64,000 nt of DNA from Pyrococcus yayanosii CH1 (GTDB lineage Archaea; Methanobacteriota_B; Thermococci; Thermococcales; Thermococcaceae), in contig NC_015680.1 in NCBI RefSeq assembly GCF_000215995.1, forward strand, positions 248,001 to 312,000. Direction: 5' to 3'. The translations under genes and the position numbers were made by a program. This document shows positions 7,586-47,486 of the stretch, in pieces. How positions within the stretch are numbered: the first letter of the stretch is position 1; each line of letters opens with the position of its first letter. The notes beneath the pieces were generated by a model. It ran no database searches. It worked only from the letters and a program-made list of their open reading frames with translations, and had not been told where the DNA came from.

Positions 7586-8017
7586 TCACCTCAGCCTACC
7601 GGTGTGCTCATCACTTATCAGATGAGGGGAAGGCTCATCATCCCCTACCTTTCCATAGACCCATCCCAGGGCGAACACGAGGGCGGCGAGTCCGAAGAGC
7701 AGATAGGGTCCGAGCTCCCTGAAGTCCGTCGTTATAACGAGCTTTCGAACGATGGCCATCATACCCAGCTCGGCAACCCTTCTCATGCTGACGTGGTGCT
7801 CCTTAAGGTAAAGGGACAGGAGTTCGTAGACCTCGACGAATATTATGACGAGCATAAAGTCGTCAAGGATGGCGTTAAGATTTTCTCCCGAGATTATGGC
7901 GAAGAACATCCTGTATATAGCCATGCCTATCAAGGCCATTGTAGCCAGCTCGAGCATAACAACAATTACATCGAAAGCCGGGTCTAGGAGCCGGAACAGA
8001 GATCCTCTCTTCATCAT
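7586..8017 (-). CDS. PsiE-like integral membrane protein
   Basis: The product has 143 residues with about four hydrophobic segments (15-40, 50-67, 83-92 and 103-122). The region [19 protein letters not shown] resembles the phosphate-starvation-inducible PsiE family, whose biochemical role is unknown. Tail residues are polar and acidic. It is the first gene of a two-gene operon with fen, the stop overlapping the fen ribosome-binding site. An alternative start is the second ATG, 3 bases on. Confidence 0.75.
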
Positions 8018-17102: not shown

Positions 17103-17145
17103 CTTTAATCACCCCCAAACTTCTGCCTAACCCTACTTTTGAGCG

Positions 17146-17160
17146 GGCTTTTTAAAGGTT
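17146..17160 (-). promoter_or_regulatory. BRE/TATA promoter of EF-1alpha-S10
   Basis: Minus strand AACCTTTAAAAAGCC, preceded by GCGA, is a strong archaeal promoter core. The predicted start near 17127 leaves a leader of about 25 bases with GGGGGTGATTAAAG just before the ATG. Confidence 0.65.
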
Positions 17161-17336
17161 TCGCACCTCGGCCCCCTCGGCGGGAAACCCGCCGTAACGA
17201 GAGGGCCTCATTAGCCTCGGGGAAAGTTCAGGTGTGGGTTTAAAAAATTAACTGAAGCTCGGCGGTGACCACTTTCATCATAATTCAGTCAAGACCGATT
17301 TCCTCATCGCGAGGACCGCTTTGGAGTTGGGGATTA
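17161..17336. other. Intergenic DNA with a GC-rich inverted-repeat element
   Basis: The gap lies between divergent EF-1alpha and lipoate ligase promoters. At 17171-17208 the sequence folds into a stem: ggcccc-ctcg pairs with cgag-agggcc, with an inner GGCGGG-aaa-CCCGCC hairpin (17180-17194). It lies upstream of the EF-1alpha promoter core, and another TATA-like tract (ttaaaaaatta) is near 17239-17249. No open frame or known RNA family is recognised. Confidence 0.4.
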
Positions 17337-17376: not shown

Positions 17377-18126
17377 ATGAGGTTTGTCCCCCTCATAGTC
17401 GCCCGACCTGAGGTCCAGATGGCGATAGATGAGGCGATATTTAGGGCTAGAATTGAGGGGAAGGTGCCCGACACGGTGAGGCTCTACGTTTTTAAGCCGA
17501 GCTCCGTGACAATTGGCCGGTTCCAGAGTATTAGGCATGATGTTGACATCGAGAGGGCCCGGGATCTGGGAATCCCGGTGGTCAGAAGAATAACTGGCGG
17601 TGGAAGCGTCTTTCACGACGAATATGGCGAGATAACGTATTCTGTCATCATCGGAGAGGACTATCACCCGTCCTTGAGAAACGTTCAAGAGAGTTACAGG
17701 TATTTGGCAGGCCCCCTAATCGATGCACTCAAGGAGCTAGGCCTAAACGCTGAGTTTTCGGGTCTTAACGATGTAGTAGTTAGGGGTAAGAAGATAAGTG
17801 GCTCGGCTCAAACGAGGGCCAAGGGAGTTATCCTTCAGCACGGCACCTTCATGTACGCGACGAGGCTTGATGTTCTCGCATCGGTTCTAAAAGTATCGAG
17901 GGAGAAGCTGAAGGACAAGGGTGTCTCCAGCATATACGAGAGGGTGACAACCCTTGAAAGGGAAGGGGTGAGGTTATCGAGAAGCGAGGCCTACGAGTTG
18001 CTAAAGGAAAGCTTCTTCAGGGCGTTCCCCCTTGAAGAGGCTCCCCTGACGGACTACGAGCTCGAACTCGCCGAAAGGCTCGTGGAGGAGAGATATGGGA
18101 ACCCGAATTGGAACCTCTCTAAGTAG
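17377..18126 (+). CDS. lplA: Lipoate-protein ligase A, catalytic (large) domain
   Basis: This domain activates lipoate and transfers it to lipoyl domains such as GcvH. The product has 249 residues. It shows the BPL/LplA fold signatures RRITGGGSVFHDEYGEI (about 70-86), the catalytic-lysine region GKKISGSAQTRAKG (about 127-140) and LQHGTF. The C-terminal adenylation-assisting domain found in bacterial LplA is missing; a separate gene at 52489-52773 encodes it. GGGGGTGAT is 4 bases before the ATG. The TATA is near 17340-17347. It overlaps the convergent CDF gene by 8 bases. Confidence 0.92.
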   Translation: MRFVPLIVARPEVQMAIDEAIFRARIEGKVPDTVRLYVFKPSSVTIGRFQSIRHDVDIERARDLGIPVVRRITGGGSVFHDEYGEITYSVIIGEDYHPSLRNVQESYRYLAGPLIDALKELGLNAEFSGLNDVVVRGKKISGSAQTRAKGVILQHGTFMYATRLDVLASVLKVSREKLKDKGVSSIYERVTTLEREGVRLSRSEAYELLKESFFRAFPLEEAPLTDYELELAERLVEERYGNPNWNLSK

Positions 18127-18979
18127 TAACACCTTTGATGTCTACGTGAACAAATGCAACTTCAACCTCGGGCAGCCTCTCAATTTTCTTTTTAACCTCT
18201 TCGCTTATGTCGTGGGCTTCCTTGAGGGTCATCATGGGCGGAACCTCTATGTGGAGCTCGACATGAAGTCTGCTTCCCACGTAGTGGGCTCTCAAATCGT
18301 GGACGCCGAGAACGTTGGGAACGCTGAGTGCTGCCTCCTCAATCTTCTTGCACACTTCTAAGGGAGGAGCCTTTCCGGTCAGGTAGTGGACGTTTTCAAG
18401 GATGATCTCGATGGCGACCTTGGCTATGAAAAGACTAACTATTACACCTGCAACTCCGTCACCCCATGCCATACCACCCTTTTCGAGGATAAGGCCAATG
18501 AGAACTGCCACGGTGCTCAGGACGTCGCTCCTGTGGTGGTAGGCATCGGCTATGAGGATGCTGTTGTTGAGCCTTTTGCCAACGGCCAGAGTGTACTGGG
18601 TCATGGCCTCCTTGAGGAGTATTGATATCAGGGCCACTCCTATCATCACGGGCGTAACCTCTATGGGGACGCCTCTTATAATCCTTTCAAGAGAGTCTCT
18701 GCCTATCTCGTAGGCCGCGAGGAGGAGCAGTTCTCCCATAAAGAAAGCGAAGAGTGGTTCAAACCTAGAATGGCCAAAGGGATGGGTGCTGTCGGGGGGC
18801 TTCTTCGATATCCTTATGCCGACGAACCCTATAACGCTGGTAACAAGATCGCTGAGGGAGTGGATTCCATCGGATATGAGGGCTATGCTCGAGCTTATAA
18901 TGCCAACGGCTATTTTCAGGGCCGCGAGCAGGAGGTTACCAACTATGCTCACGGCAATTGGCTTGTAGGCTTCCTCCAT
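18119..18979 (-). CDS. Cation diffusion facilitator family transporter
   Basis: This is a proton-coupled exporter of Zn2+, Fe2+ or similar ions. The product has 286 residues. About five to six membrane helices occupy 1-200; the metal site motifs are SDGIHSLSDL (about 33-42) and ADAYHHRSDV (about 144-153), each with the HxxxD spacing. A cytoplasmic domain (about 205-286, VLGVHDLRAHYVGSRLHVEL) follows. The ATG at 18979 has GGGGTGAT 4 bases upstream, directly after a box C/D sRNA on the same strand. Metal specificity cannot be told. Confidence 0.92.
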   Translation of the reverse strand: MEEAYKPIAVSIVGNLLLAALKIAVGIISSSIALISDGIHSLSDLVTSVIGFVGIRISKKPPDSTHPFGHSRFEPLFAFFMGELLLLAAYEIGRDSLERIIRGVPIEVTPVMIGVALISILLKEAMTQYTLAVGKRLNNSILIADAYHHRSDVLSTVAVLIGLILEKGGMAWGDGVAGVIVSLFIAKVAIEIILENVHYLTGKAPPLEVCKKIEEAALSVPNVLGVHDLRAHYVGSRLHVELHIEVPPMMTLKEAHDISEEVKKKIERLPEVEVAFVHVDIKGVTT

Positions 18980-18986
18980 CCTATCA

Positions 18987-19046
18987 CCCCGGTCAGTCCG
19001 TCACTCCCTCATCACACCTCAGTTAAGGCTGAACTCATCATCCCGT
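18987..19046 (-). ncRNA. Box C/D sRNA (rRNA/tRNA 2'-O-methylation guide)
   Basis: On the minus strand, every element of an archaeal C/D guide RNA is in order. Box C is ATGATGA (19041-19035), guide 1 is GTTCAGCCTTAA (19034-19023) and D' is CTGA (19022-19019). After a 3-base spacer come C' GTGATGA (19015-19009), guide 2 GGGAGTGACGGA (19008-18997) and D CTGA (18996-18993). CGGG and CC flank the ends. A TATA box (CCTTTTAATGG, 19073-19063) lies about 25 bases upstream. The 3' end abuts the ribosome-binding site of the CDF gene, so the sRNA may be processed from that transcript. Targets were not identified. Boundaries are approximate. Confidence 0.85.
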
Positions 19047-19061: not shown

Positions 19062-19073
19062 CCCATTAAAAGG
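19062..19073 (-). promoter_or_regulatory. TATA box for the C/D sRNA and CDF transporter
   Basis: Minus strand CCTTTTAATGGG is centred about 25 bases before the predicted 5' end of the sRNA (about 19045). It is the only promoter-like element before the CDF gene. Confidence 0.6.
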
Positions 19074-19077
19074 TTTT

Positions 19078-19133
19078 GGCTCAGAGATCACCTCTGTCCT
19101 CATCAATCGGGTCGCCCATCATTCATCATCGCC
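19078..19133 (-). ncRNA. Second, weaker box C/D sRNA candidate
   Basis: On the minus strand, GGC starts a stem closed by GCC. Between them are C ATGATGA (19129-19123), a 12-base guide, D' CCGA (19110-19107), C' TTGATGA (19106-19100), a 15-base guide, and D CTGA (19084-19081). D' and C' each deviate by one base and guide 2 is long. No clear TATA is seen in front. The 5' part overlaps the decayed end of sfsA. It could be chance. Confidence 0.35.
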
Positions 19134-33591: not shown

Positions 33592-33655
33592 AGGTCGATG
33601 AGGAGTAAGCTGTTAGCCGAGCGGTGATGAGAGGATGGCTGGCCGAGACGCTCAC
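33592..33655 (+). ncRNA. Box C/D sRNA candidate with variant boxes
   Basis: After GGTC comes GATGA (variant C box TCGATGA, 33595-33601), a 15-base guide, then CCGA (D'), GCG, a canonical C' box GTGATGA, a 12-base guide GAGGATGGCTGG, and CCGA (D) followed by GACG, which can pair with the leading GGTC. C and D each carry one U-to-C change, so the terminal kink-turn is atypical. A TATA lies about 25 bases upstream. The 3' end touches the DUF1699 stop. Confidence 0.45.
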
Positions 33656-47416: not shown

Positions 47417-47486
47417 GCGGGCTCGTGATGAGCTTTCCCTACGGCCCGAGCACGTGCAATGAGGAGTACAGCCAGGGCTGATGACC
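47417..47486 (+). ncRNA. Box C/D sRNA
   Basis: In order: C box GTGATGA (47425-47431), guide 1 GCTTTCCCTACGGC (47432-47445), D' CCGA (47446-47449), a 9-base spacer, C' ATGAGGA (47459-47465), guide 2 GTACAGCCAGGG (47466-47477), D CTGA (47478-47481). Box C and D are canonical, D' and C' differ by one base each, as is usual for internal boxes. A TATA-like CTTTAAATC at 47390-47398 lies about 25 bases before the predicted 5' end. It occupies the gap between the radical SAM and phosphoesterase genes and holds no open frame. Targets are undetermined; ends are approximate. Confidence 0.75.

Follow-up and report, generated by a model that had tools for sequence, protein, structure and literature searches.

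Archaeal box C/D sRNA genes mostly overlap or closely adjoin their neighbor genes (PMC7994747). As reviewed there, C/D sRNAs overlapping the 5′ ends of ORFs account for 7% of the genes, with transcription of the downstream gene being reduced (Tripp et al., 2017). In T. kodakarensis, 5′ leaders are reported to contain 11 potential snoRNAs (Jager et al., 2014; PMC4247193)—that is, guide RNAs in a probable mRNA leader, from which release is needed. In Sulfolobus acidocaldarius, L7Ae lowers the translation of its own mRNA via a kink-turn near the Shine-Dalgarno site (PMC5539422). Furthermore, the Thermococcales box C/D sRNA sR60 is already catalogued in Rfam (RF01309), and a literature search for sR60 in Pyrococcus found no paper on it in the collection searched.

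The window analyzed here, a 64-kb stretch of the P. yayanosii CH1 genome, contains at 18990-19045 of the minus strand an orthologue of this archaeal box C/D guide sRNA. Compared with the Rfam family, the match is full-length, and the perfect boxes, 12-nt guides, and 3-nt internal loop are alike; there is no essential difference, the 13-nt spacing to a gene for a CDF cation-efflux transporter being particular to some species. As with the ORF-overlapping genes outlined in PMC7994747, the sRNA is packed against the start of a downstream gene, but it abuts rather than overlaps, with the CDF start codon lying 13 nt past the D box and the ribosome-binding site in between, unlike in the cases of Tripp et al. 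(2017) as summarized there. The arrangement is like that of the T. kodakarensis leader sRNAs in placing a guide RNA in a probable mRNA leader, and the passages of PMC4247193 on those leaders do not mention the sR60–CDF pair. The junction also shares with the L7Ae system a kink-turn beside a Shine-Dalgarno site; however, the latter is a single regulatory kink-turn on l7ae, whereas sR60 is a complete double-guide sRNA with predicted rRNA targets.

Boxes, closing stem, and predicted 16S rRNA targets of sR60

The Rfam match to sR60 spans 18991-19045 with a score of 83 bits (E 4.2e-19), exceeding the gathering cut-off of 50 bits. Read on the minus strand from 19041 to 18993, the order is ATGATGA-GTTCAGCCTTAA-CTGA-GGT-GTGATGA-GGGAGTGACGGA-CTGA, with the following elements:

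18990-19045, minus strand: sR60 box C/D sRNA (RF01309) including its 3-bp terminal stem, from Rfam and stem covariation
19045-19043 and 18992-18990, minus strand: terminal stem strands CGG and CCG, one loop base before box C
19035-19041, minus strand: box C, ATGATGA, from the sequence
19023-19034, minus strand: D′ guide, GTTCAGCCTTAA, 9 bp to the organism's own 16S rRNA
19019-19022, minus strand: box D′, CTGA, from the sequence
19009-19015, minus strand: box C′, GTGATGA, from the sequence
18997-19008, minus strand: D guide, GGGAGTGACGGA, 10 bp to the organism's own 16S rRNA
18993-18996, minus strand: box D, CTGA, from the sequence

The C and C′ boxes (RUGAUGA) and the D and D′ boxes (CUGA) are thus correctly ordered, and both guides fall within 10-14 nt. 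An earlier reading of the sequence alone had described four perfect boxes, 12-base guides, and a 3-base loop, all of which are confirmed by the sequence and the Rfam match. Among 80 distinct sequences from relatives, the two inner pairs of the terminal stem (pairs 1 and 2) never depart from standard pairing, each occurring as three pair types (G-C, C-G, and A-U), and the third pair is standard in 91%, with CGG/CCG, CCC/GGG, and AAA/TTT as examples of the covariation. This covarying 3-bp stem, together with the single loop base, would provide the closing stem and kink-turn geometry; the minimum-energy fold was uninformative. sR60 is one of six C/D RNAs detected by Rfam in the window, where Rfam also placed the following features away from the locus:

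7588-7645, minus strand: snoPyro_CD
17125-17217: SscA
17257-17311, minus strand: sR44
33595-33648, plus strand: sR24
47421-47483, plus strand: sR19

Targets were sought in the 16S and 23S genes of P. yayanosii CH1 itself, whose genome is a single contig of 1,716,818 bases. The D guide forms 10 bp with CCGTCACTCC of 16S rRNA (site 1364-1375), with U1368 facing the fifth base from the D box, and the D′ guide forms 9 bp with AAGGCTGAA (site 857-868), with G861 facing the fifth base from D′. Both guides therefore have the in-register complementarity that the sequence-only reading had proposed looking for, as far as 16S rRNA is concerned. Anchoring by universal primer sites of known E. coli coordinates makes U1368 equivalent to E. 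coli U1406 and G861 to E. coli G902. The longest in-register run in randomized rRNA pairs equaled the D-guide match in 0 of 200 cases and the D′-guide match in 9 of 200, which makes for a strong D target and, when taken alone, a moderate D′ target.

In the family search, sR60 was found in 91 of the 94 genomes of the taxonomic family, with 90 matches above the cut-off, and was absent from all 14 control genomes. Conservation was assessed in 89 loci collected by a pattern requiring the core GAGTGACG; the one locus missed by the pattern, out of 90 examined, carries the core too. In these 89 loci the D-guide sequence GGAGTGACG is invariant, in part by construction because the collecting pattern required GAGTGACG, and the adjoining G is kept in 88; counted from the D box, positions 3-11 are constant and position 2 is altered once. 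The D′-guide sequence TTCAGCCT is likewise invariant, with positions 4-11 from D′ constant and position 3 differing in eight, one pair of the D′ pairing being lost in those eight genomes. The unpaired guide ends and the spacers are variable, and the pairing bases are invariant or nearly so, which strengthens both target assignments. Thus, sR60 probably directs methylation at U1406 through the D guide and at G902 through the D′ guide, in or near the decoding region, with L7Ae, Nop5, and fibrillarin expected to assemble on its two kink-turn motifs and the resulting RNP to methylate 16S rRNA at both sites. The main text of a P. abyssi 30S cryo-EM paper gave no match for ribose-methylation terms or for these two sites.

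Tandem neighbor sR1, predicted promoter, and the CDF junction

A second box C/D sRNA, sR1, lies 33 nt upstream of sR60, and a TATA-like element is found between the two:

19079-19133, minus strand: sR1 box C/D sRNA (Rfam RF01152), 52.9 bits, E 2.4e-10
19122-19111 and 19096-19085, minus strand: sR1 D′ and D guides, respectively, from 16S matches
19066-19071, minus strand: TATA-like TTTTAA, centered about 28 nt before box C of sR60

The sR1 D′ guide pairs with 16S rRNA at E. coli C1402 through a duplex containing one G-U pair. The sR1 D guide, GAGGTGATC, forms 9 bp with GATCACCTC of the 16S tail, with C1533 as the target, a match reached in 0 of 200 randomized rRNA trials; sR1 is accordingly a guide RNA predicted to be aimed at the anti-Shine-Dalgarno sequence. 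The GGTGATC core of this D guide was present in all 65 loci where the search pattern, which included the D′ core, was found. As neighbors, sR1 and sR60 both appear to guide modification at the decoding end of 16S rRNA, and each receives a clean, checkable target assignment; the duplexes of the sR1 D′ guide and the sR60 D guide overlap, so that the two would be unable to bind there simultaneously. On the same strand, the SfsA gene (PF03749; 19126-19497 and upstream to ~19730) appears to be frameshift-broken in P. yayanosii CH1, and its stop codon (19128-19126) falls within box C of sR1.

The center of TTTTAA lies about 25 bases ahead of the 5′ end of the sR60 terminal stem, and its distance from box C is that expected if transcription starts at the 5′ end of sR60 itself. 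Transcription is thus predicted to begin near 19045-19042, from a promoter between sR1 and sR60. A TATA-like element centered 24-34 nt before box C was present at all 79 tested loci outside the genus of P. yayanosii; within the genus it precedes sR60 in only one of nine cases, P. yayanosii CH1, and sR1 and sR60 are closer together in the other members. In those members, which have no such element before sR60, transcription of sR60 may thus rely on the promoter of sR1, and the same could hold in P. yayanosii. A scan for bacterial promoters and terminators was uninformative for an archaeon, its terminator part covering bacterial signals only.

Downstream, sR60 meets the CDF gene:

18983-18988, minus strand: CDF ribosome-binding site, GGTGAT, complementary to the 16S tail GATCACCTCCT
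18119-18979, minus strand: CDF cation-efflux transporter gene, intact, 286 aa (PF01545, E 8e-48; PF16916, E 4e-21)

The gap from the D box to GGTGAT is 4 bases, and a single base separates the terminal stem from this site. No obvious stop precedes the CDF gene, and the read-through RNA would most likely double as the CDF mRNA; a shared transcript of sR60 and the CDF gene is likely in P. yayanosii, as predicted from the spacing and the TATA-like element. Since trimming to mature sR60 probably removes the ribosome-binding site or cuts close to it, a molecule so trimmed would probably no longer carry that site, and any given copy of the primary transcript would yield either the sRNA or the mRNA. 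The sequence-only reading had placed a TATA element 25 bases upstream and the D box 6 bases from the ribosome-binding site, with one promoter making both RNAs: the TATA-like element exists, with 25 being the distance to the stem and about 28 that to box C; the adjacency holds, at 4 bases rather than 6; and the single promoter stands as a prediction from the tight junction. Masking of the ribosome-binding site by secondary structure was rejected, the leader folding no better than shuffled sequences (z 0.88).

Conservation of the arrangement and alternative explanations

A CDF gene start lies downstream of sR60 in 77 of the 89 loci. The remaining 12 genomes keep a fully conserved sR60 without an intact adjoining CDF gene, and CDF fragments were left in five of these loci (tblastn), one of the five being weak; the search of genome contigs with the CDF protein returned four metagenome relatives only. 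Of the 77, 29 have a spacer of 9-40 nt and 48 one of 52-137 nt; in many of the long spacers a TATA-like box is present, along with the palindrome TGTGCATATGCACA immediately ahead of the ribosome-binding site. On a quick CDF protein tree from partial sequences and without bootstrap, the short-spacer state requires eight changes, at least five of them forced by well-supported branches. Retention of sR60 thus does not depend on the CDF gene, and the close junction recurs without being required. A conserved function of the sR60–CDF linkage was rejected on these grounds, namely spacers of 9-137 nt in 77 genomes and 12 genomes without an intact CDF gene, and the idea that processing links rRNA modification with transporter expression is not supported, given the 48 long spacers and the 12 loci without an intact CDF gene. 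A designed link between methylation and transporter is unsupported because the spacers vary, separate TATA-like boxes are frequent, and sR60 outlives the CDF gene.

That the motif is a chance resemblance to C/D boxes, or a leader structure of similar appearance, and no sRNA gene at all, might be suspected from the discussion in passages of PMC4247193 of 5′-leader kink-turn elements that may be non-guide RNAs. Given the Rfam score of sR60, its occurrence in 91 of 94 genomes, the in-register 16S guides, the covarying stem, and its persistence without the CDF gene, this has next to no chance of being correct, and it is practically refuted by the loci that lack the CDF gene yet keep the guide bases conserved. 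The CDF mRNA could, on the other hand, be separate from the sR60 transcript, starting at an unrecognized site near the ATG and being leaderless or very short-leadered, a reading to which the frequency of short leaders among archaeal mRNAs and the separate TATA-like box of the CDF gene in many relatives lend some weight. However, the 25-30 bases before any start in the spacer belong to a constrained guide RNA without a TATA-like element, and a good ribosome-binding site is present for which a leaderless mRNA would have no use; we regard a separate start as unlikely.

The junction might also act as a switch, with L7Ae or the full guide RNP, bound to the kink-turn by the ribosome-binding site, blocking translation or diverting the transcript to sRNA, so that CDF output would follow the supply of guide-RNP proteins. 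The single nucleotide between the terminal stem and GGTGAT, the precedent of L7Ae autoregulation in S. acidocaldarius (PMC5539422), and the appearance of short spacers anew in several lineages are all compatible with such a switch, but long spacers prevail among the relatives having both genes, sR60 stands without an intact CDF gene in 12 genomes, and none of the conserved features observed would benefit the CDF gene alone, making the switch very unlikely. In an L7Ae-type translational control element, the placement of the kink-turn relative to the Shine-Dalgarno site would be conserved along with the controlled gene, which the same variation in spacing and CDF content contradicts. Highly improbable, in our estimation, is a version confined to short-spacer lineages, in which the CDF gene would have lost the promoter and palindrome belonging to it, so that metal efflux came under the sRNA promoter, and RNP assembly at the ribosome-binding site would set the share of transporter mRNA; if true, metal efflux would be tied to guide-RNP supply. 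We consider it highly probable, taking the account as a whole, that the locus holds an sR60 orthologue guiding methylation of U1406 and G902, with read-through into the CDF gene and incidental packing, the sR60–CDF overlap being a by-product of compact gene packing with no conserved regulatory link. In about 90 genomes the sRNA and the downstream gene can be 9 or 137 bases apart, with repeated switching between such states, suggesting that packing of this kind is usually incidental and that a single tight junction is a poor ground for inferring function.

The TGTGCATATGCACA palindrome and a second CDF copy

The palindrome TGTGCATATGCACA occurs one to three times per genome in 85 of the 94 family genomes, and its reversed control occurs 0 times in every genome. 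It sits upstream of CDF genes and, from a reading of the proteins, of NifX-like and MRP-type ATPase genes, and is a candidate operator of a metal or cofactor regulon. P. yayanosii CH1 has a second CDF copy (G000:C1:103350-104175), which is 66-68% identical and broken into two pieces. This broken copy retains the upstream palindrome, and the CDF gene of the window is without it.
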